Source: Acholeplasmatales bacterium (GTDB lineage: Bacteria; Bacillota_I; Bacilli_A; Izemoplasmatales; Izemoplasmataceae). From it: 38,825 nt of DNA. The notes beneath the pieces were generated by a model. The model saw nothing but the letters and a program-made list of their open reading frames with translations. It made no database searches and had not been told where the DNA came from. Positions 25,175 through 38,780 of this stretch are shown here, one piece after another. Within the stretch, counting starts at the first letter, position 1. Each line of letters starts with the position of its first letter. The stretch is taken from the NCBI GenBank assembly GCA_007694145.1, contig RECF01000047.1, forward strand, positions 1-38,825. The letters are read 5' to 3'. Position numbers and translations under genes: made by a program.

Positions 25175-25254
25175 GGTAAAACCGCATTTATCGCTTATTG
25201 ACAACGATTTTTTTGCAACCTGTCTAAAATGAGGCGCAAGATGCCATGTCCTTA

Positions 25255-25284
25255 TTGCATGCTTTTTCTATTATCATTTATACT
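25255..25284 (+). promoter_or_regulatory. Promoter TTGCAT-18-TATACT for first ABC/FtsX gene
   Basis: -35 is at 25255-25260 and -10 at 25279-25284, giving a leader of about 35 bases before the ATG at 25325. Confidence 0.5.
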
Positions 25285-25324
25285 TAATGTAACTATGATG
25301 TTCCGCGCGAAAGGAGTGATTGCC

Positions 25325-27625
25325 ATGCTCTCGCTCAAGCACATATGCAAGTTCTATGATGACAACCATCACCGTGTTGTCGCTCTTGATAACATCAACT
25401 TGACGATGGAAGCCGGGGAGTTTGTTGCTTTGCTCGGTCCTTCAGGTTGTGGGAAGACGACGTTGTTAAACATCATCGGTGGTTTGGATACCTACTCGCA
25501 ACATGATTTTTATGAAACGGGAAAAACCTTTCTGACATTCAGAAAGAGTGAACTGACGATATCAGGCAGAGCTACGCGTAATTTCAGTGAACGAGAATGG
25601 GATCGCTATCGAAACAACCATGTCGGCTTCGTTTTCCAACACTATAATCTCATTCCTCATCTCACCGTCTTAGACAATGTGATGCTGGGCATGACTTTGT
25701 CAGGGGTTGACAAAGCCACCCGTCGCACCCGCGCTGAGACGGTGCTGAAACAGGTGGGACTCCTTGACAAGGCGCAGACGAAAAACGCCCAACTTTCGAG
25801 CGGACAACGTCAAAAAGCGGCCATTGCCCGCGCTTTGGTGAATGAACCGGATATTTTAATTGCGGACGAACCGACCGGCGCATTGGACTCTGAAGCGGGT
25901 CGCGACATCATGCAACTCTTAAGGGAAATCGCACAAGATAAGCTTGTGATTATGGCAACGCATAACGAAGAACTTGCTCAAGCATATGCGTCAAGAATCG
26001 TGCGCATGAAAGATGGACAGGTCGTTGAAGATACGACGCTCCGTACGTTTGAAAAGCAACCTGAAAGCTTGGTACAAGGCTTTTCACCGATTGCCATGCC
26101 GATTAGCGCGGCTGTTCACTTATCGTTGAAAAATCTACGGATGAAACGCGCGCGTTCGTTTCTTGCAGTCTTAGCCGGGGCGGTCGGAATTGCCGGTGTG
26201 GCACTGGTTTTAAGTATCGCCAGCGGTCTAGGACGAGAGATTGAGCGGATCGAAGCGGAGACACTGGCGGCCATGCCCATTGCCATCCACCGCTTCCCTA
26301 GCACGCAAACCAACTTGCCGCTTATTGACGGCCGTGATTTCAGTTATAACTTTGCACCGTGGTTTGAACCCGTTGTCGGAGGGTCACGGACACACACCAA
26401 CTTGATTACGCAGGAATATGTGGACCATTTGCATGCGATGCAGTCTGAATGGCTGAATGGTATCTCGTTTTTGCATGGTGTACGGATGCCTTTCGTTGCT
26501 TTTGATGAAGACGGCGCGCGGAACAGTTTAACCGAGGGTGTTCTCTTTCAGCCCCTGCAAAGCAGTCGCATTTATCTTGAGAGTCAATATTCATTGCAGG
26601 CAGGTCGTTACCCTGAGGCTGACGATGAACTGGTCATCATTGTCGATGCACTCAACCACATCGACGCAGGCATTCTTGAGTTTCTCGGTGTCGAACAAAC
26701 TGGAAGTCGCTTTTTTTTCCGCGAGGTCCTTGACACGGAAGTGCTGCTTTTCTTCAATGATGGGCAACATATCGAATATGATCTACTCACCGGGACAATC
26801 GAGCGAAGCTTCATTGAGTCTGCCACCGATCACCAACTCGCGATGACGGTGGTCGGTGTGCTTAAAGGTCGTCCTAACAGTCTAGAAACTAGCACGTCTG
26901 GCATTTTCTATCTTGATACCTTAGAAAAGACCTTCATCCAAAACAATCAGCCGTCGGCATTTTGCGAAGTCCTCGCAAACATTGATTTACGTGATGCGAC
27001 ACGCGAACGTCGTACCGAGGTGCTTGAAATACGACGGATGCACGGATGTCAAACGTTGCCCACTGTTATAAATATTTATCCGCGATCACTTGAGACAAAA
27101 CGGTCGGTCATCGCGCACTTAAATGACTACAATGCGGGGCGCGCTGAAGAACAACGGATTCAATACACCGATTTATCGGCTGTCTTGTCTGGATTACTGG
27201 GCACAATCAGCACCAATGTGACGACGGTACTCTTTGCCCTTGGGGTGGTGGCGGTCCTTGTATCGGCTAGTCTTGTGGCCATGCTCGTTTATAACGGTCT
27301 CGTCGAACGAACCAAAGAAATCGGCATCCTGCGCAGTTTAGGGGCCCGCCGCCGGGATGTGGCCCGGATGTTTAATGTCGAGGCACTGCTCATTGGACTG
27401 TTAGCGGGCATCGTAGGCATTGGGTTCGCGTATCTGCTGAGTATCCCCATCAACCGTACCTTGAGCAACATCTTGGTTGGGTTTGACCGTGTGGTCCGCT
27501 TACAGCTGCCCATCATGTTGATGCTGGTATTGTTCAGTGTTGTCATCACATTTTTGTCAGGCCTATTGCCAGCATTAGCCGCTGCTCGTCGCCATCCCGC
27601 TGCCGCCTTACGTCATCATGACTGA
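25325..27625 (+). CDS. MacB/FtsX-type ABC transporter, ATPase-permease fusion (copy 1)
   Basis: The protein has 766 residues. The N-terminal ATPase (1-235) has Walker A GPSGCGKT at 38-45, Q-loop near 105, signature LSSGQ at 157-161, Walker B ILIADE at 177-182 and an H-loop in MATHNEE. The FtsX/MacB permease has one helix near 275-300, a large extracellular domain (about 300-640) and three C-terminal helices, with the cytoplasmic coupling sequence ERTKEIGILRSLGARRRD. Such mechanotransmission transporters expel peptides, act on lipoproteins or sense antimicrobials. About 15 extra residues (57-72) lie between Walker A and the Q-loop compared with copy 2, and the signature has Ser in place of the usual first Gly. 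AAAGGAGTGAT fixes the start; the frame upstream is not coding. Monocistronic. Confidence 0.88.
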   Translation: MLSLKHICKFYDDNHHRVVALDNINLTMEAGEFVALLGPSGCGKTTLLNIIGGLDTYSQHDFYETGKTFLTFRKSELTISGRATRNFSEREWDRYRNNHVGFVFQHYNLIPHLTVLDNVMLGMTLSGVDKATRRTRAETVLKQVGLLDKAQTKNAQLSSGQRQKAAIARALVNEPDILIADEPTGALDSEAGRDIMQLLREIAQDKLVIMATHNEELAQAYASRIVRMKDGQVVEDTTLRTFEKQPESLVQGFSPIAMPISAAVHLSLKNLRMKRARSFLAVLAGAVGIAGVALVLSIASGLGREIERIEAETLAAMPIAIHRFPSTQTNLPLIDGRDFSYNFAPWFEPVVGGSRTHTNLITQEYVDHLHAMQSEWLNGISFLHGVRMPFVAFDEDGARNSLTEGVLFQPLQSSRIYLESQYSLQAGRYPEADDELVIIVDALNHIDAGILEFLGVEQTGSRFFFREVLDTEVLLFFNDGQHIEYDLLTGTIERSFIESATDHQLAMTVVGVLKGRPNSLETSTSGIFYLDTLEKTFIQNNQPSAFCEVLANIDLRDATRERRTEVLEIRRMHGCQTLPTVINIYPRSLETKRSVIAHLNDYNAGRAEEQRIQYTDLSAVLSGLLGTISTNVTTVLFALGVVAVLVSASLVAMLVYNGLVERTKEIGILRSLGARRRDVARMFNVEALLIGLLAGIVGIGFAYLLSIPINRTLSNILVGFDRVVRLQLPIMLMLVLFSVVITFLSGLLPALAAARRHPAAALRHHD

Positions 27626-27750: not shown

Positions 27751-29829
27751 TTAATTGTGTGGTGTGTATCGCAAGCCGATGCGGAGTTGTTCAAGGTTGT
27801 GCTGCATCATCTCAAAGAGCGTCATCCCACGCTGATAATCAACGCTTGGGACGTTTTCCAACGCATAGAGATAAAGAATCTCGGCACCAGTTTCCTGGGC
27901 AATCGCTTGGGCGACATGCGGTGCAATCATTTTTTCAGAGAATAGATGTTCGATACCAAAAGCAGTCATCGTGTCAATCATGTTAGCTAAAGCTTGTGGC
28001 GTTGGTTCGGCATCGGTAGAAAATCCACGATAAGGATTCACGTACCCAAAGCTATAACGATGAACGAGGTATCCGAGAACATTATGACCCCCATACATGA
28101 TGACATTGAGTTCGGCATGCGCACGCAAGTCAAGGAAATCCTCATGTAAGGCATCGAGATCATTGAGATAGTTGTGGGCGTTGATTCGCAATGTACTTTC
28201 ATGTTGAGGAAGCAGTTCGATAAGGGCATCACGCACTTCAAGCATCATGATAGCAAGATTGAGCGGATCCATCCAGATATGCGGATCAAACGGACCGTCA
28301 AATTGCGGCTCATCGCTGACTGTGACATTCATCGGGGGTGTCGTGTAACGTAACTCACCACGGTGAACCCACGAGAAGACAACTTGAGTTTGACCATTTT
28401 GCAGACCGCGGATGTGAACATGGTCACCATGATTGACAAGTTCGACAATGCCTTCTGACGCACCGTGTGCGAGGGATACAGTTAGGGCGTTCACTTCACC
28501 TTCGCTGTCTAAATCGCGTTCCCGACCATCTGCGGACATGATGAAGGCACCGAGTGAAAGGTGTTCATTGACCGCGACACCTGGCAAGCCGCCATGCCAA
28601 TGGGTACCATGGACATAAGCGATTTTCGCGCCGTCATCTTGACGGTTGAGCAGTTCAAATGCACCGATTTCCGGTTGATGGACATGACTGCCGACCGTAA
28701 CGGTCATCGGCGGTGTCGTGTAGCGTAACTCACCACGGTGAACCCAAGAGAAGACAACTTGAGTTTGGCCGTTTTGCAAACCGCGAATATGAACATGATC
28801 ACCATGGTTGACAAGCTCGACTATACCTTCTTCCGCACCGTGTGCGAGCGAAACGGTCACTGCGTTAACTTCACCTTCGCTGTCGAGTTCACGTTCGCGA
28901 CCATCGGCTGAGACAATATGTGCGCCAAGCGACAGATGGCTGTCTACATCAACGATGGGTAGTGAACCGTGCCAATGAAGACCATGGACATAGGCGATTT
29001 TCGACCCGCCATCTTGACGGTTGAGCAGTTCAAAGGCACCGATTTCTGGTTGATGATCATGATCACCAACCGTGACTGTCATCGCCGGGGTGGTGTAGCG
29101 AACCTCACCGCGGTGAACCCAAGAGAACACCACGTGCGTGTGACCATCCTGCAAACCACGGATGTGCACATGGTCACCGTGGTTGACAAGTTCGACAATG
29201 CCTTCTGCTGCACCGTCTGCAAGGGAAACCGTGACGGCGTTGACGTCACCATCAAGCTCGCGTTCTCGATCGTCTGCTGAGACAATGTGCGCCCCAAGTG
29301 ACACGTGGCTGTCCACATCGATGTTTGGTAATGAGCCATGCCAATGGCCACCATGGACGTAGGCGATTTTCGCCCCACCGTCTTGACGGTCGAGCAGCTC
29401 AAATGCACCAATCTCATCCTCATGTTCATGATCGTGGTCATGGTTGTGATCATCAGGCATTGTGGTGCTTGCTTGAAAACCGATGAGGTGGACATTACGA
29501 CTGAGGTCAAGGACACGTAGGCGTCGGTTTTGCGTCGGACTGATGAGATTGGCGACCCATGGCTCCATGGTATCGCCGGTATATAGCAACAAATCCGCAT
29601 CCAAGATTTCTACGAGTTTTCTTGGTGTTGGTTCAAAGGTGTGTGCATCGGCACCTGGTGGCAACAACAACTCTAGGTCAATCAGGTCACCCGCCAAGGC
29701 TCTGGCAATATCATACTGGGGGAAGAGTGTGGCCAACACAACAGGCTTTTCGCGTTCCTGCTCTACAGAACAAGCGGACAATCCAGCTAAGAGAAAGACA
29801 GTCATCAACAACAACATTATTTTTTTCAT
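27751..29829 (-). CDS. ZnuA/AdcA-type zinc-binding lipoprotein with three inserted His-rich domains
   Basis: The 692-residue protein is far longer than the usual 300-320. It begins with a lipoprotein signal peptide (LAGLSAC, Cys20). The substrate-binding fold is split. Residues 28-120 carry DAHTFEPTPR with the first zinc His, and residues about 508-692 carry DPHIWMDP, YGGHNVLGYL and the remaining ligands. Between them, where ZnuA proteins have a short His loop, lies DDHNHDHDHEHEDE and then three tandem domains of about 123 residues (139-504). AAGGAGG fixes the start. No znuB or znuC neighbours it, so it must serve permease components encoded elsewhere, or act as a surface zinc scavenger. A Zur-like inverted repeat covers its -35. 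It may bind Mn, but the His content favours zinc. Confidence 0.9.
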   Translation of the reverse strand: MKKIMLLLMTVFLLAGLSACSVEQEREKPVVLATLFPQYDIARALAGDLIDLELLLPPGADAHTFEPTPRKLVEILDADLLLYTGDTMEPWVANLISPTQNRRLRVLDLSRNVHLIGFQASTTMPDDHNHDHDHEHEDEIGAFELLDRQDGGAKIAYVHGGHWHGSLPNIDVDSHVSLGAHIVSADDRERELDGDVNAVTVSLADGAAEGIVELVNHGDHVHIRGLQDGHTHVVFSWVHRGEVRYTTPAMTVTVGDHDHQPEIGAFELLNRQDGGSKIAYVHGLHWHGSLPIVDVDSHLSLGAHIVSADGRERELDSEGEVNAVTVSLAHGAEEGIVELVNHGDHVHIRGLQNGQTQVVFSWVHRGELRYTTPPMTVTVGSHVHQPEIGAFELLNRQDDGAKIAYVHGTHWHGGLPGVAVNEHLSLGAFIMSADGRERDLDSEGEVNALTVSLAHGASEGIVELVNHGDHVHIRGLQNGQTQVVFSWVHRGELRYTTPPMNVTVSDEPQFDGPFDPHIWMDPLNLAIMMLEVRDALIELLPQHESTLRINAHNYLNDLDALHEDFLDLRAHAELNVIMYGGHNVLGYLVHRYSFGYVNPYRGFSTDAEPTPQALANMIDTMTAFGIEHLFSEKMIAPHVAQAIAQETGAEILYLYALENVPSVDYQRGMTLFEMMQHNLEQLRIGLRYTPHN
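28318..29415 (-). repeat. Three tandem His-rich domain repeats inside the zinc lipoprotein gene
   Basis: Repeat 1 is 29047-29415, repeat 2 is 28672-29046 and repeat 3 is 28318-28671. Each begins EIGAFELL, contains VHGxHWHG, HxSLGA, NHGDHVHIRGLQ and SWVHRGE, and ends in a TTPxMTVTV strand. Eight His are kept in all three. Repeats 2 and 3 are closest at the DNA level, while repeat 1 lacks two codons, suggesting stepwise duplication. The beta-rich ending resembles an immunoglobulin-like fold, which is an inference. Confidence 0.9.
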
Positions 29830-29859: not shown

Positions 29860-29887
29860 ATTATACACGTCTTTAAAGCAAATGCAA
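29860..29887 (-). promoter_or_regulatory. Promoter TTGCAT-16-TATAAT for the zinc lipoprotein gene
   Basis: Minus-strand -10 is at 29860-29865 and -35 at 29882-29887. The -35 lies within the operator-like repeat at 29881-29899. Confidence 0.65.
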
Positions 29888-29899
29888 ACCATTCGCATT
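29881..29899. promoter_or_regulatory. Zur-like operator overlapping the zinc lipoprotein promoter
   Basis: The 19-bp inverted repeat AATGCAAA-CCA-TTCGCATT has one mismatch. Its position over the -35 suits repression by a Fur-family zinc sensor. The sequence is not identical to the Bacillus Zur or streptococcal AdcR box as I know them. Confidence 0.5.
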
Positions 29900-29910
29900 A
29901 AAATATGCAA

Positions 29911-30671: not shown

Positions 30672-32231
30672 CTACATCCAATCGGGTGGATCAAAAGTTT
30701 GTGCCGCATTGTTGGTGGCACCGGGCGTCAGGTGCACACCTTCAAAGTAAGCCCAGGTACTACTACCATCAGGCCACCGGCCGTAAGACATGTTGCGTGG
30801 TATGAACACAGGCAATGTCTGATCGATACGCGTCACACGATCGGCATGGGTCAGTACAATAGACTGACCGCTTTGACTGATGCTGAAGTTTGTGTGTAGC
30901 CACGCATCGGGGTTACGCCGATCTTTTCCAGAAGCGTAGACAACCAAATGGCTATGCGCTGCCAGCGTGATGCCATTTGGAAACTGCCATTTCAAGGGGT
31001 CATCGGGATCATCAGATAGGAAGAAACCCGATAAATCCATGGCTTGATCATGCGGATTGAACAGTTCAATCCAATCTTCAAAATCGCCATCTTCATCTGG
31101 GAAAACTTGGCCGTTAGAACTCATGATTTCGTTGATGAAAAGCGTTTGGGTTAGTGGCTGGGGAAGATGGTGTGGTCGCCGGTAAGTAATGGCAGACCAG
31201 TACGCATCTAACAGTGCGTAGCCACTTTGATCGTCTTGTGTGGTCAAAGGGATCGGATTGTCGCGAATATCAATTTCAGCCAACTTGTTCGAAGCCGGGT
31301 CGTCTTGCAGTGCACCCGCTGCCATCAGCTGAGCGAGGACGTCGACGGATGTGATCCCCGTATTGCGCAAGTTCAGTCTTTGCAAGCGTGTCAGCGGTTC
31401 AAGTTGGTCGATTTGTTCACCAACAGGCACATGTTGCATAATCAGTGTTTCGAGATTTACTAGGTTGCGTAACGGTGACACATCATTGATTTCCGTGTTT
31501 GAATGTAGGTTCAGGTAGGTCAACGCTTGCAAATCATCTAAGAAGGCAAGGGTGCGCAAAGCAGTTTCACGTAAGTTGAGATATTCTAGTCGACTAAGCA
31601 TGCGCAACGTTTCAGCAGCGATGAGATGATCAAGAGGGTTTTTACTGAGATCAAGACGCCGCAAGTTCGTCAAACCTTGAAGTGGGCTGATATCAACGAT
31701 GTGGTTGTCACGCAGTTCTAGCGTCTCAAGAGACGTCAGGCTTTCAAGCAAGGTCAAATCCTCAAGACGAAACTGAAAGCTTAGATTGTCCGGGTTCGGG
31801 CGTAACACATTGTGTCGCAGGTTCAGATGGCGCAAAGGTACATCATGCAAGGCCGCAAAACCAATCGCTTCGAGACTGGTGATTTCGTTGTTGCGCAAAC
31901 TCAGTTCTTCAAGATGTCTCAATGTTGCAAGCGGGGATACATCGGTGATGAAGTTGTCTTCGAAGTCAAGGACGCGGACATAGCGCAACGCTTCAATCCC
32001 TTCTAAGTGTGTGATGCCCCGATTTCTTGCGTCAAGACGCGTCAACTGCTCGACCTCAAAGCGCCTGAGCGGGTCCTCTTGATTATTAAGGGCATCGCGC
32101 ACAGCTGCCTCAAGACCTTGATCGGTAAAGGTCACAACACTGTGTCGTCGATGCAACATCAAATAAAACGCCCCAAGGAGCAGGCCGCTTAATATAAGGA
32201 TAATCAGTAGTCGCGTCACACGAATTTTCAT
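30672..32231 (-). CDS. Membrane-anchored leucine-rich-repeat protein with lamin-tail domain
   Basis: The 519-residue protein has an N-terminal hydrophobic anchor (about 7-27) without a lipobox. A run of LRRs of about 22 residues each follows (about 60-335, repeats of the LxxLxxLxLxxNxI type such as LETLELRDNHIVDISPLQGL). Then comes a lamin-tail domain (about 362-470, FINEIMSSNG, DFEDWIELFNPHDQAMDLSG, FLSDDPDDPLKWQFPNG). The product should be displayed outside the membrane. Lamin-tail domains often accompany CotH kinases in bacteria, sometimes in one polypeptide. Here it is the last gene of the cotH - DUF4956 - VTC operon, 26 bases after VTC. Its function is unknown; I infer a structural or recognition partner of the CotH lipoprotein. 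GAGGTGA fixes the start. Confidence 0.85.
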   Translation of the reverse strand: MKIRVTRLLIILILSGLLLGAFYLMLHRRHSVVTFTDQGLEAAVRDALNNQEDPLRRFEVEQLTRLDARNRGITHLEGIEALRYVRVLDFEDNFITDVSPLATLRHLEELSLRNNEITSLEAIGFAALHDVPLRHLNLRHNVLRPNPDNLSFQFRLEDLTLLESLTSLETLELRDNHIVDISPLQGLTNLRRLDLSKNPLDHLIAAETLRMLSRLEYLNLRETALRTLAFLDDLQALTYLNLHSNTEINDVSPLRNLVNLETLIMQHVPVGEQIDQLEPLTRLQRLNLRNTGITSVDVLAQLMAAGALQDDPASNKLAEIDIRDNPIPLTTQDDQSGYALLDAYWSAITYRRPHHLPQPLTQTLFINEIMSSNGQVFPDEDGDFEDWIELFNPHDQAMDLSGFFLSDDPDDPLKWQFPNGITLAAHSHLVVYASGKDRRNPDAWLHTNFSISQSGQSIVLTHADRVTRIDQTLPVFIPRNMSYGRWPDGSSTWAYFEGVHLTPGATNNAAQTFDPPDWM

Positions 32232-32257
32232 GGGGTCACCTCACAATGCCAAGAAGT

Positions 32258-32998
32258 TCAACTGTCATGGACGGCGGGAAAATGCAACATGTGGGGCCGA
32301 ATGACTTCAATGCCTTGGACGTACTTGCTGTTGGGTACGGCTTTCAGACTGTGGGTGCGAACGATTCGCTTGAGCCAGTCAGGCGTCGACATGCCGCACT
32401 TAATTTCGAGAATTATTCTTTTCGGTCGGTGATAGCGCATTGCGGGCGCTATAGGAAACAGCACGTTCGCCCGGCTGCTTTGCACCCCGTGATCAAACGT
32501 AATCCTGAGCGGTTCACGCGTGCGGGACATGTAACCTTCGCGTGTATACTCAACCAAGAGTTGCGGTTGCAAGCTACGAACATGAAGTAAACGAAGAAAC
32601 TCCTGCCAAACCGGATCAGGGGCTTCAGGCATGACATCACGGTCAAACCAAGCTGAAAACACATCATAATCGATCAAGCTAGCATGTTTAATCATGGCCG
32701 CGCCTCGCTTGGTCTTGAGTTCGATGGAGACCTGTTCGCATTGCGCTACTGTATCCACGTAACTGCGCACACGGATTTTGATACGACCAAATTGCCCGTC
32801 ATCCCGTTCATGAAAGGCGTGAAGCGCATGCGTGTCGTAGTAAAGACTTCGCACTAGATAACGACTGTTCGGTGCTTCCTCAGTATAAAAGTCACGTGTC
32901 ACAAACGGCGCCAACGCGTGTTTGACAGCGTAGTATTGAGAAAGTGACAAGACATACTTGTATTCAAAACGTTCCGAAGTCCGAATCATGGGCCTCAC
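32258..32998 (-). CDS. VTC-domain (polyphosphate polymerase-like) protein
   Basis: This 246-residue protein is a triphosphate-tunnel-type VTC domain, related to the catalytic subunit of yeast polyphosphate polymerase. Tunnel residues are visible in order: RFEYKYVLS near the N-terminus, LVRSLYYDT, KIRVRSYVD, ELKTKRG, LLVEYTREGY, LRITFDHG, ILEIKC with the metal-binding Glu, and SKYVQGIE. There is no membrane helix; the DUF4956 partner may anchor it at the cytoplasmic face. The gene starts with GTG at 32998, overlapping the DUF4956 stop (GTGA); an in-frame ATG at 32989 is an alternative with a close GAGG. Overlap implies translational coupling. Polyphosphate synthesis is known for the family; it is inferred here. 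Confidence 0.9.
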   Translation of the reverse strand: MRPMIRTSERFEYKYVLSLSQYYAVKHALAPFVTRDFYTEEAPNSRYLVRSLYYDTHALHAFHERDDGQFGRIKIRVRSYVDTVAQCEQVSIELKTKRGAAMIKHASLIDYDVFSAWFDRDVMPEAPDPVWQEFLRLLHVRSLQPQLLVEYTREGYMSRTREPLRITFDHGVQSSRANVLFPIAPAMRYHRPKRIILEIKCGMSTPDWLKRIVRTHSLKAVPNSKYVQGIEVIRPHMLHFPAVHDS

Positions 32999-33675
32999 AT
33001 CGGCAACGCCAGCTGTGGCGCTAGTAGCGAGACTTTGTGAACCCCTTCTGCGGCTTGAAGTAGGTGGACGGTGTCATCGATACTACTTAGTTTCGTTTTG
33101 TCAAATCGAAGCTCGAAGATAATCTCATACCGATCGCCCTCTTGCTCACGACTACGCAACTGCACATCGATGCCACCCATGTCGGCCAACGTCTTCATCG
33201 GTGTATCGTCAAAGCGTCGCTCGCCGCTGATGATCAAAATATACTCCGCATGGATCGGACGCCCATACTTGATCAAGTAGAAGACCAACATCAGTGCGCC
33301 GAGGATGAGCGTGGCCAAAACAGCGATGGTCCAGTTTTGTGTACCGATGCCAAGCCCGATGGCGATGGTCCAAAACAGAAAAGCCATGTCACGGGTATCT
33401 TTGATGGGTGTACGAAACCGGATGATTGACAAAGAGCCCACCAAACCAAGTGATAAGACGAGATCCCCCTGGATGAAAAACATCACCAAGGTCACAATGG
33501 GGGATAAAACCACGAGGGTTGGTAGAAATGAACTTTCATAATTGAGACCGCGGTGGGTATGGCGATAGATCAGGGCAATGGCTGTACCGAGTACAATCGC
33601 AAGAAACATGGAAAAGACAAAAGTAAGCAAGGTTTCAGAAGGGATGATAATCTGATCGATTAGGGTTGTCATCAT
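32995..33675 (-). CDS. DUF4956 membrane protein
   Basis: The 226-residue protein has four hydrophobic helices (about 15-40, 50-70, 75-95 and 105-140). The family signature GLVGSLSIIRFRTPIKD leads into AFLFWTIAIGLGIG. A soluble C-terminal domain follows (about 150-226, alpha/beta). DUF4956 proteins have no known biochemistry but are commonly encoded beside VTC and CotH genes. It is preceded by cotH at 32 bases and overlaps the VTC gene by four bases, so it is likely to work in a complex with VTC. GAGGTGC places the start at the ATG at 33675, with a second ATG directly after. Confidence 0.9.
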   Translation of the reverse strand: MMTTLIDQIIIPSETLLTFVFSMFLAIVLGTAIALIYRHTHRGLNYESSFLPTLVVLSPIVTLVMFFIQGDLVLSLGLVGSLSIIRFRTPIKDTRDMAFLFWTIAIGLGIGTQNWTIAVLATLILGALMLVFYLIKYGRPIHAEYILIISGERRFDDTPMKTLADMGGIDVQLRSREQEGDRYEIIFELRFDKTKLSSIDDTVHLLQAAEGVHKVSLLAPQLALPM

Positions 33676-33707
33676 GATGCACCTCATATTCTATGAATTG
33701 GCGGGTT

Positions 33708-35246
33708 TCAGTCAAAGAAACCATATTGGTAGTCGTTGGAGTGAACGGTGAAATACATCCAGGTCGAGCGCGTTTGAAGATAATCGATTAAAAAATCGCC
33801 ATGTTCTTGGTGGGTATGCAAAGCGACAAGTTCAGGTGTGTTCGGCCACACGTAGTGGGTCAAAATCGGCCACCGATTGAAGTTGTTCGCTGCCATGTCC
33901 GCAAGACTTTCGGTCATGACTGGAATCGCCTCGAGCAAGACCGGCAAGAACACGTTATGGACGGTCGCATACCGTTCCCTGAATCGGTTCCTGACCTCAG
34001 GAATTTGCATCATCAGTGTAAACCAACGATTTTTGTCCCGCATGCCATGAAACCCTTCAGGACCATAGCCAAAAGACATGTAGTACGCATTACCAATCGC
34101 TAGATCGAAGTCCCATATCGGTCCCATTCGCAACGGTTCACCAGGCTGCTTATACATAAAGACGCTGCTCCAGCCCACATCGACATTCTTGAACAACTCA
34201 TGGATGATGAAGTAGTCGATGAAATTATCGATGTCCATGTAGGCCTCGTAACCGGTGCGCGCGATCATCGCGGCTTCCATTTCCACGATATGGTTGCGCA
34301 TGAACGCGTTGTACGCTTGCATGGTCGCAGTGTTGTTTGAGGAAGGAACCTTGATGTTGTAAGGGATACCAGCAACCGTAAACCAATCGGTTCCCGTCAC
34401 GTGGCCATGCTCATAAAAACGTTGATCCAGTTCCATGAAGTAGCCAACATCTAGGCCCATGTCACCAACAGGCGACTTGAGGGCGAGTTTGTTCGGATGG
34501 GCTTCGATATGCTCGGTAAGCACATAGACGCCCTCATAATGACCGTTAACGTAGAGTTCGACATAGCGCGTTGACACAGCATGGTCAAGATGATCAAAGA
34601 AATGGGTGAACCAATGAACAACCGTGTTGCGCATCAGTGATTTGTCCGCATACTCAGCAAGTAGTACGTAGTTGCGCGCTTCAGGTAATCCCAGTAATGA
34701 TGCCGCGTCACCTAGACGGATACGGAAAGGTTTCTTCGGCATGAACCAAGTCGAGTTGCCCCGACCCCTGAGCTCGGCATTGTGGGTTTCAAAAAGCTCA
34801 GTATGTACCCCGTTGACTCGACCACTTAAACTGAGTGCAGCCCCGACATACGTGTCGCGATTGATCTGGCTGATCGATTCAGCCATCTCAATTTCAAGCA
34901 CATAGCGATGCCGACCAGATTCAGGGGCAAGCAGCCGTAACGGATAGGTGACATCCATTGTACCGCTTCCTGACAGTCTAATGGTGGCTTCTAACTCAAT
35001 CTGCGTATCAAAAAGCGGTGGTTCATAGAGAAAAAACCTGTCTAAAACTTGGTCATTCAAGCGCCATTCAATGACCGCATCCGGATGAACAGGCAATACA
35101 AAGTCGGCATTGACGTCGCTTGGAAGCTGAAACTTGATTGCAGCACTGACTTGATCGAGTGCTTCTTGATCGACGGGCGTATTCAAGCAACCCATGAGTC
35201 CAAGACTAAACGCAAGGAGCGTCACCATGCACCATACTCTTTTCAT
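33708..35246 (-). CDS. CotH-like kinase lipoprotein
   Basis: The 512-residue lipoprotein has a signal peptide ending in LGLMGC (Cys20), followed by a beta-rich N-terminal region (about 25-150) and a CotH kinase domain (about 155-450). Landmarks are ELRGRGNSTWFMPKKPFRIR, NYVLLAEYADKSLMRN, YVELYVNGHYEGVYVLTEHI, NFIDYFIIHELFKN and the metal-binding MGPIWDFDLAIGN. CotH of Bacillus spore coats is an atypical protein kinase that phosphorylates coat proteins. Here the enzyme should sit outside the membrane, where ATP supply is unclear. The start at 35246 follows GGGGGATTCG; the frame upstream is not required. First gene of its operon, with an apparently dedicated promoter. Confidence 0.9.
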   Translation of the reverse strand: MKRVWCMVTLLAFSLGLMGCLNTPVDQEALDQVSAAIKFQLPSDVNADFVLPVHPDAVIEWRLNDQVLDRFFLYEPPLFDTQIELEATIRLSGSGTMDVTYPLRLLAPESGRHRYVLEIEMAESISQINRDTYVGAALSLSGRVNGVHTELFETHNAELRGRGNSTWFMPKKPFRIRLGDAASLLGLPEARNYVLLAEYADKSLMRNTVVHWFTHFFDHLDHAVSTRYVELYVNGHYEGVYVLTEHIEAHPNKLALKSPVGDMGLDVGYFMELDQRFYEHGHVTGTDWFTVAGIPYNIKVPSSNNTATMQAYNAFMRNHIVEMEAAMIARTGYEAYMDIDNFIDYFIIHELFKNVDVGWSSVFMYKQPGEPLRMGPIWDFDLAIGNAYYMSFGYGPEGFHGMRDKNRWFTLMMQIPEVRNRFRERYATVHNVFLPVLLEAIPVMTESLADMAANNFNRWPILTHYVWPNTPELVALHTHQEHGDFLIDYLQTRSTWMYFTVHSNDYQYGFFD

Positions 35247-35301
35247 CGAATCCCCCATTATCAAAATGTTAACACGATATTATCACAATTTAACGAAAGT
35301 C

Positions 35302-36476: not shown

Positions 36477-38780
36477 ATGCTGCAACTGACTGGTATAACC
36501 AAACGATACGAAATCGGTACTTTTAAGCAAACGGCACTTGACGGCGTCGATTTGGCGTTTCGATCTAAAGAGTTTGTCTGCATTCTTGGGCCGTCAGGTT
36601 CGGGCAAAACCACCTTGTTGAATATGATCGGGGGTTTGGACCGTTATGACGCCGGTGACTTGTTGATCAGCGGCAAGTCGACACGTCATTTCAAAGCATC
36701 TCAATGGGATAGTTATCGAAACCATGCCATCGGGTTTGTGTTTCAAAACTACAATCTGATCACGCACACCAGTGTACTGGCCAATGTCGAAGTCGGTTTG
36801 ACTTTGAGTGGTCTGAGTGCTGAGAAGCGACGCGAACGCGCACTAGAAGTCCTCGAACGCGTCGGCCTGATTGATCATGTTTACAAAAAGCCCAATCAAC
36901 TTTCAGGCGGTCAAATGCAACGGGTGGCGATCGCGCGGGCGCTGGCCAATGATCCCGATATCATTCTCGCGGATGAACCGACGGGGGCAATCGACAGTGC
37001 AACCAGTCGGCAGATCATGTCGCTGATTCAAGAGATTTCACGAGATAAACTGGTCATCATGGTGACCCATGATGAACAGATTGCCCATACCTATGCGAGT
37101 CGTGTTGTCACCCTTCGTGATGGGCAAGTACTCCACGACAGCGACCCCTATGTACCCGAGCAAAGCACGACGGATAAGTTGTCTTTCAAACGTACCTCGA
37201 TGGCCTTTTTGCAAGCACTACAGCTCTCATTCAGCAATCTCAAAACCAAGAAGTTCCGAACACTCATCACCGCCTTTGCCGGCAGTATCGGCATTATCGG
37301 TGTGGCGCTTGTGTTATCTTTAGCCAATGGCTTAAATCAGGAGATTGACCGTTTGGAAATGACGACACTCGCTGAGTTTCCTATTCAAATCGAGACAGTC
37401 GCCTTTGATTTAGCAGCGGCTAGGCAAAGTGGTCCACCCACGGGCCGGCCGAGTGATGCCGGCGATTTCGAGCAGTTTCCGGATGTGCGCACCATCTTCC
37501 CATTCCAACGATCTTTATCACCTGTGCAACATGTCAATATCATCAGTGACGATTATATGCAGCATATTGATGCACTGAATCCGATCTATTACCATGATAT
37601 TTTGATTAACCGCAGTGTGAACATGAACATCTTACATCGCCGGCCTAATGATCAAGTCAATCGCATCAATACGGGAACCGTCAACTTCGAACCGATGCTT
37701 GGCAACCCGGATTTCTTTTCAGACAATTATGATGTGTTAGAAGGCCGTTTGCCGGAAAACCATCAGGAACTCCTGTTGATTGTCGATGCATATAATCGTT
37801 TGAACGTCCGGTTCTTTACGGAGCTAGGCCTAGACCCCAATGCGATTGAATATGATTTTGATGTATTCTTGAATCGTTCATTCCAAGTGGTACTTCACGA
37901 TGACTACTATACGTATGACGCCGCAACCAACCGCTTTTTCCAACCGACAAACCTTACCGCTTTCTATGGAGAAAATCGAGGAATCGATTTGAGTATCGTA
38001 GGGATTGCCCGCGTCAGTGAGGGCGCCTTGTCTAATGTATTGAGTCAGGGCATCAAGTATCATCCCGATCTTGCCGCTCTGTACCTTGAGCATGCTGCGA
38101 CCTCTGAAATTGGTCTTGCGCAACTGGCATCGCCAGAACGGAGCCTGATAACCGGCAGTACGATTACACCACAAACCCACCAATCTCTCTTACGCTCACT
38201 TGGTGTTGACAGCACACCCTCTTCGATTGCCATCTATCCAGTTAGTTTTGAGGCCAAGGAAGCCATACGCGACCATCTCGATGCTTTCAATGTCGATCGT
38301 TCAGACGCGGAGCGCATCATTTATACGGACTTAGCGGCCATCGTCACCGAACTGACGAGCGATGTCATCAACGGCATTTCCTACGTGCTCATCGCATTTT
38401 CATCGATATCACTGATCGTCTCGTCCATTATGATTGGAATTATCACCTATGTTTCGGTGCTTGAGCGGACGAAAGAAATCGGCATTTTGCGCAGTCTCGG
38501 TGCTCGGAAACGTGATATAGCACGGGTGTTCAATGCGGAAACAACCCTCATTGGACTCGTCGCCGGGTCACTGGGTGTGGCCATCGCCTTTTTGCTCACC
38601 TTTCCCATTAATGCCATTATCGGCAACTTGGTCGATCAGCTCGATCGTCTGGCCGTCATGCCCATCCAAGCAGCCTTTGCGCTGATTGTAATCAGTGTCA
38701 TCCTTACCTTGATTGCCGGACTCATTCCTTCAAGCATCGCCTCAAGAAAAGATCCGGTCGCTGCACTTAGAGTCGACTAA
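36477..38780 (+). CDS. MacB/FtsX-type ABC transporter, ATPase-permease fusion (copy 2)
   Basis: The 767-residue protein is a paralogue of the one at 25325-27625. The ATPase has Walker A GPSGSGKT at 38-45, Q90, canonical signature LSGGQMQR near 142, Walker B IILADE and an H-loop in MVTHDEQ. The permease has a helix near 262-285, a long extracellular domain (about 290-630) and three C-terminal helices with the ERTKEIGILRSLGARKRD coupling sequence. MacB-type fusions in Firmicutes are often linked to bacitracin-type peptide resistance, peptide export or lipoprotein handling; the substrate is not evident here. No two-component system or accessory gene is adjacent. AAAGGGCG precedes the ATG at 36477. 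Confidence 0.9.
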   Translation: MLQLTGITKRYEIGTFKQTALDGVDLAFRSKEFVCILGPSGSGKTTLLNMIGGLDRYDAGDLLISGKSTRHFKASQWDSYRNHAIGFVFQNYNLITHTSVLANVEVGLTLSGLSAEKRRERALEVLERVGLIDHVYKKPNQLSGGQMQRVAIARALANDPDIILADEPTGAIDSATSRQIMSLIQEISRDKLVIMVTHDEQIAHTYASRVVTLRDGQVLHDSDPYVPEQSTTDKLSFKRTSMAFLQALQLSFSNLKTKKFRTLITAFAGSIGIIGVALVLSLANGLNQEIDRLEMTTLAEFPIQIETVAFDLAAARQSGPPTGRPSDAGDFEQFPDVRTIFPFQRSLSPVQHVNIISDDYMQHIDALNPIYYHDILINRSVNMNILHRRPNDQVNRINTGTVNFEPMLGNPDFFSDNYDVLEGRLPENHQELLLIVDAYNRLNVRFFTELGLDPNAIEYDFDVFLNRSFQVVLHDDYYTYDAATNRFFQPTNLTAFYGENRGIDLSIVGIARVSEGALSNVLSQGIKYHPDLAALYLEHAATSEIGLAQLASPERSLITGSTITPQTHQSLLRSLGVDSTPSSIAIYPVSFEAKEAIRDHLDAFNVDRSDAERIIYTDLAAIVTELTSDVINGISYVLIAFSSISLIVSSIMIGIITYVSVLERTKEIGILRSLGARKRDIARVFNAETTLIGLVAGSLGVAIAFLLTFPINAIIGNLVDQLDRLAVMPIQAAFALIVISVILTLIAGLIPSSIASRKDPVAALRVD

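Follow-up and report, generated by a model that had tools for sequence, protein, structure and literature searches.

The histidine triad protein PhtD is encoded in the same operon as the zinc SBP AdcAII and passes zinc to it, a transfer followed by NMR; its triad is split over two successive strands, one carrying the first His and the following one the second and third, and a Glu is the fourth ligand (PMC3842936). AdcAII itself holds its metal with His65, His141, His205 and Glu280 (PMC8416893). In AdcA, a ZnuA core is joined to ZinT, and this extra zinc domain is proposed to pass zinc on via the His loop (PMC7858048). Corynebacterium diphtheriae ZnuA is a zinc-regulated SBP with His ligands far apart in the chain (H63, H317, H383) and an HxD/HxH motif, and its companions ZnuE, ZnuF, ZnuG and CmrA are surface proteins with one to three copies of this motif (PMC12445094). 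In cyanobacteria, the Zur-regulated extracellular zinc protein ZepA has an Ig-like domain, a conserved Glu and the motif H-x2-9-H-[FY]-H (PMC10957091).

The gene analyzed here belongs to an Izemoplasmatales bacterium, a relative of the mycoplasmas with a genome of 1.86 Mb (G000), and lies in a stretch of 38,825 nucleotides, hereafter called the window (Table 1). A preliminary description of this DNA had placed the gene at the right coordinates and overlooked that it runs on the minus strand, where it starts with ATG; the plus strand over the same interval is rich in stops. The 692-residue product is best explained, from its sequence, as the binding lipoprotein of a zinc importer of the ZnuABC/AdcABC type. 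The model PF01297 (ZnuA, cluster A-I zinc SBP) matches both lobes with 214.9 bits against a cut-off of 29, and residues 139-505 split this match into two stretches, so that the ZnuA-like fold is indeed broken by three homologous tandem units, as first described. All four transport ligands are intact in the core, namely H63, H517 (in DPHIW), H582 and E632, which align with the ligands in the AdcA and YcdH structures. SBPs of the same branch without units carry a plain His/Asp-rich loop at the insertion point, inside a stretch of 45-77 residues. The units therefore take the position of the ZnuA His loop, as proposed earlier, and the short His stretch said to precede the first unit is also there and is acidic. 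Elsewhere in the window, a minus-strand gene row at 30672-35264 encodes an LRR and lamin-tail-domain protein, a VTC-domain protein, a DUF4956 protein and a CotH kinase-like protein. Two plus-strand genes of like build (25229-27625 and 36477-38780), each an ABC ATPase fused to an FtsX-type permease, flank the SBP region.

Table 1. Features of the SBP gene and its upstream region, in window coordinates.
Feature	Position	Strand	Basis
Gene for predicted ZnuA-type zinc-binding lipoprotein with three inserted His-triad units, 692 aa	27751..29829	-	ORF, translation; Pfam ZnuA E=1.8e-63
Signal peptide, lipobox LSAC, residues 1-20	29770..29829	-	sequence
N-terminal ZnuA lobe, residues 21-125; metal ligand H63 at 29641-29643	29455..29769	-	Pfam and PDB alignments
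Remaining acidic His stretch DDHNHDHDHEHED, residues 126-138	29416..29454	-	sequence; His/Asp-rich loop at this point in sister SBPs
Unit 1, residues 139-261; triads HGGHWH (29338-29355) and HGDHVH (29164-29181)	29047..29415	-	alignment
Unit 2, residues 262-386; triads HGLHWH (28969-28986) and HGDHVH (28789-28806)	28672..29046	-	alignment
Unit 3, residues 387-505; triads HGTHWH (28594-28611) and HGDHVH (28414-28431)	28315..28671	-	alignment
C-terminal ZnuA lobe, residues 506-692; metal ligands H517, H582, E632	27754..28314	-	Pfam and PDB alignments
Palindromic operator AAATGCAAACCATTCGCATTA (plus strand), probable Zur-type box	29880..29900	.	score 30.9; maximum 13.4 over 20 shuffled windows
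Promoter: -35 TTTGCA (29883-29888) within the operator, 17-bp spacer, -10 TATAAT (29860-29865)	29860..29888	-	sequence

The three units are 123, 125 and 119 residues long and share 79-87% identity in protein and 76-79% in DNA. Between units, dS exceeds 1 and dN/dS is 0.05-0.13; the copies are not recent, given this dS, and the units are old and under purifying selection. The alignment bears out the claim that eight His are in register in all three units (positions 21, 24, 26, 37, 81, 84, 86 and 103 of unit 2). Among 32 homologous units, H24 is invariant, H21 and H26 are found in 91% and H84 in 94%, while H81, H86 and H103 are kept in 66-72%; H37 is genus-specific (25%). E6 is likewise invariant (32/32), and the W of HGxHWH occurs in 31 of the 32 units. 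The motifs first noted, VHGxHWHG and NHGDHVHIRG, are real, but that description missed that they contain two HxxHxH triads per unit. This makes six triads in the protein, whereas residue shuffling expects 0.29 (maximum 3 in 2000 shuffles), and the six triad columns have a mean conservation of 0.86 compared to 0.61 for the whole unit.

Neither a single unit, searched against Pfam, NCBIfam and the PDB, nor a profile of the 32 units, searched against the PDB, gave a significant match. AlphaFold2 models were poor: one unit (five-row alignment) reached a pLDDT of 46 with strands weakly formed in its C-terminal half only, and the whole protein (two-row alignment) had a pLDDT of 29 and was unusable. 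In the weak unit model, strands 76-80 and 85-89 flank triad 2, and the best Foldseek matches of this model were mostly Ig-like, none of them below E 0.001. The unit profile also aligned by hhalign with the Ig-like repeats of a mollicute protein (L062) at a probability of 90 over unit positions 32-110. We infer that triad 1 lies on a first segment of about 30 residues and triad 2 on a hairpin of the Ig-like part that follows (about residues 32-119). Each module would thus probably offer two zinc sites, one in the short N-terminal segment and one on the hairpin of the Ig-like part. The module is best explained as an undescribed, lineage-specific family of about 120 residues, the last 80 or so of which are predicted to be Ig-like.

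The arrangement resembles Pht/AdcAII in its repeated HxxHxH triads with an HGDHxH core and in pairing a zinc SBP with a surface protein produced alongside it. Moreover, two relatives encode a free module lipoprotein beside the SBP, much as phtD stands with adcAII (PMC3842936). The invariant E6, a candidate fourth ligand for triad 1, sits 15 residues before it, whereas the acidic fourth ligand of Pht lies about 20 before its triad. However, the unit here is about 120 residues long, partly Ig-like and equipped with two triads, and the triads in the window protein are inside the SBP itself. Homology to Pht domains was suggested by matches of 4 of the 32 units to PF04270 (Strep_his_triad), all below the cut-off (best E 0.027). 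In a profile alignment with a Pht-like protein, the probability was 8.3 over 11 columns and the motif alone was aligned. We therefore regard the likeness as one of motif, with homology unproven. The Pht-like protein used (L101, G196:C23) is a lipoprotein with several HGDHxH-type motifs from the same class, outside the order. Overall, by analogy, the window protein would unite the functions of Pht and AdcAII in one chain, although by the tests made its unit is not a Pht domain. The earlier view of a modular elaboration of the loop is correct in that the units are in the loop; they are better described as a Pht-like partner protein within the SBP chain.

C. diphtheriae ZnuA and its companions are the nearest parallel in layout, but their motif differs, with HxD and HxH placed around about 150 residues. 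None of the 32 units matched the anchored-repeat models of NCBIfam (TIGR03772 and related), and TIGR03772 scored 56 bits against the whole window protein (cut-off 350), the score coming from the core lobes. Like AdcA, the window protein is a lipoprotein zinc SBP with extra, in this case predicted, zinc-binding domains. In AdcA, however, ZinT is a different domain fused at the C-terminus, while the domains here are repeated and inserted in the loop; Pfam finds no ZinT in the window protein, and the AdcA model gives 127 bits against a cut-off of 700. ZepA, compared by its description, differs as a soluble, unrepeated exoprotein whose second domain has a new fold, and its motif does not fit the unit, in which HGxHWH has W in place of F/Y.

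A palindrome was first spotted by eye among the upstream sequences and scored afterwards. Its 21-bp consensus AAATGCRAAYNRTTYGCATTT has a 7-1-7 core as in Fur-family boxes, and the site before the window gene matches the pattern with zero mismatches. The operator lies upstream of the 22 module-bearing or znuC genes examined, and 21 of these 22 sites score above every shuffle. The window genome has two sites with at most one mismatch in its 1.86 Mb, one before this SBP gene and one before a znuC-znuB-fur operon on contig C84. Across 14 genomes, 20 of the 21 sites with at most one mismatch are at module or znuC genes, and a reversed-pattern control gave 0. As the pattern was derived from these very promoters, its occurrence there is by construction, but its scarcity elsewhere is not. 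One close match lies outside such genes, at G039:C83:4506-4524. The consensus boxes of Bacillus Zur, Fur, PerR and AdcR showed no consistent match upstream of these genes.

No transporter genes stand beside the window SBP gene. Conversely, the znuC-znuB-fur operon (G000:C84:10141-12236; L096 4142-6237), which shares the operator, has no adjoining SBP gene, and the same SBP-less arrangement is found in G065, G041 and G042. The operon on C84 is thus likely the partner transporter of the window SBP, a prediction made from gene content and operator. The genome also contains a second ZnuA-like SBP with an ATPase, two permeases and an adjoining DtxR/MntR-family gene (G000:C26; L097 3570-8164). This system lacks the operator and probably imports Mn or Fe. 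The repressor acting at the operator is probably the Fur-family protein of the znuC-znuB-fur operon. Its best PDB matches are Fur, the zinc regulator FurB comes fifth, and its sequence fits either Zur or Fur; we consider it probably a Zur, with Zur-type control of these genes.

The unit is present in 14 of 90 genomes of the order Izemoplasmatales, all from seven genera of the organism's own family. Sampling 395 genomes of the class and 392 of the phylum yielded no convincing further unit, and the sole match outside the family was the weak one to L062 (E=5e-4). Searches by tblastn gave no match among plasmids; among phages, one phage (two records) was hit at E 0.06 on the strand opposite an annotated coat gene, which we took as chance. 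A search of open-access papers turned up no description of such a system in Izemoplasmatales.

Within these genomes, the unit occurs in one to three copies inside the SBPs of zinc importers and in two or three copies in free lipoproteins without ZnuA lobes (G036:C7, G039:C112, G040:C49, G044:C140 and G072:C35, with gene ends in G064 and G069). In G040 and G072, the free lipoprotein gene is immediately upstream of SBP-ATPase-ZnuB. G064 and G069 have a contig-end fragment of it upstream of the same genes and probably share this order, while in G036, G039 and G044 it lies away from the SBP. A unit-bearing SBP gene is followed by znuB in eight genomes (relatives), and a Fur-family gene stands 3' of znuB in most of these with a long enough contig, with none seen in G072. 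In Candidatus Izimaplasma isolate CSBr16_137, of the same genus (L004, SKGI01000012.1), the orthologous SBP has two units. In the weakly resolved unit tree, unit 3 of the window protein pairs with the second of these and units 1 and 2 fall near the first, so that an expansion from two to three units within the genus is likely. Module-bearing SBPs are clustered in the SBP tree, which fits one or more origins of the insertion. In G035, a single-unit SBP (L050 10721-11866; G035:C165) has lost the middle of its unit from inside triad 1 to beyond triad 2; the genome of this decaying form also encodes a two-unit SBP.

The state of triad 2 divides along these settings. It is intact in 11/12 units of free lipoproteins, in 8/13 units of multi-unit SBPs and in 0/7 single-unit SBPs, while triad 1 is intact in all seven single-unit SBPs and in 8/12 free-lipoprotein units. 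The seven genomes that encode a free lipoprotein are also those with single-unit SBPs; G039 has in addition an SBP with two units, and triad 2 is broken in each of them. In the seven genomes where a free lipoprotein was not found (G000, G035, G041, G042, G065, G067 and G068), the SBP units read HGDHVH or YGDHVH and keep at least the last two His of triad 2, the deleted remnant in G035 aside. No SBP unit of the free-lipoprotein genomes has the last triad-2 His, whereas the other group keeps it (Fisher p=0.0006, counting genomes as independent despite their relatedness, with several of them incomplete). Broken triad-2 forms fall in about four places of the unit tree. As the loss of triad 2 tracks the free lipoprotein, we read this triad as a site that the partner can supply. 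We lean, by a small measure, towards a module family that moves between a free lipoprotein and the SBP loop of the importer, with triad 2 as a capture site that the SBP gives up each time a free lipoprotein provides it. The idea of a loop elaboration falls short as the whole story: it left out the free-standing form, on which the number of units in the SBP and their triads depend.

The units might instead be mainly Ig-like spacers or adhesive domains, with the His serving fold stability or an incidental metal site and the core transporting alone. This agrees with the Ig-like character of their last 80 or so residues, with how common such domains are among surface proteins, and with the G035 SBP that lacks most of its unit, which shows that a unit can be dispensable. 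However, the triad columns are conserved well above the rest of the unit, units are found only in zinc-type SBPs and in lipoproteins with the same operator, and triad-2 loss goes with the presence of a partner lipoprotein, so we consider a spacer role unlikely.

Two further alternatives accept metal binding. The captured metal could be iron, manganese, nickel or cobalt, with a true Fur as regulator, as the PDB ranking of the Fur-family protein would allow and as HxxHxH can bind several metals. We judge this improbable, since the three His and one Glu of the core, together with the His-rich loop, are a zinc-type set and the genome has another ZnuA-like system, next to a DtxR/MntR-family gene. 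The many candidate sites per protein could also serve to buffer an excess of zinc, or of another metal, by storing or masking it, and not to feed the importer through the proposed hand-over. Yet the operator is held in common with an uptake operon that carries a Fur-family gene, which fits expression in shortage, and the units are located in the SBP itself; a protective store seems very improbable.

We thus think it probable, going by sequence and gene context, that the window protein is a built-in Pht-like device for zinc capture and hand-over, with three modules in the His loop and Zur-type control. The earlier proposal of a zinc buffer that loads a single transport site is partly borne out in this form: capture at several putative sites, probably of zinc, feeding the transport site is the best reading of the conserved triads, the operator common to znuC-znuB-fur and the His loops of sister SBPs. 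During zinc shortage, the Fur-family repressor, probably Zur, would leave the common operator, and its release would allow the SBP and the separately encoded ZnuC-ZnuB to be made together. The triads of the modules would then capture zinc outside the cell and pass it through the His stretch to the H63/H517/H582/E632 site, from which it would be delivered to ZnuB. Capture by triads with hand-over to the core is modelled on PhtD/AdcAII (PMC3842936) and AdcA (PMC7858048). In some relatives, the same task may be done in two pieces, by a free lipoprotein of two or three modules and an SBP with one. With the module either in the SBP loop or in a separate partner protein, it is probably a zinc-loading helper that can be separate or built in.

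The finding bears on how zinc, once bound by capture proteins on the surface, reaches the transport site, a question that also concerns Pht/AdcAII and AdcA/ZinT. The same module is found free, as a single insert and as two or three tandem inserts, in one importer type, among close relatives and under one operator. These settings would therefore make it possible to tell cleanly which triad captures zinc and which passes it on, and whether fusion alters uptake. If triad 2 is indeed given up whenever a free partner supplies it, these genomes would amount to a natural experiment on what separating or joining a metal-capture protein and its transporter does. For this largely uncultured group, a new domain family comes to light, together with a candidate zinc regulon.
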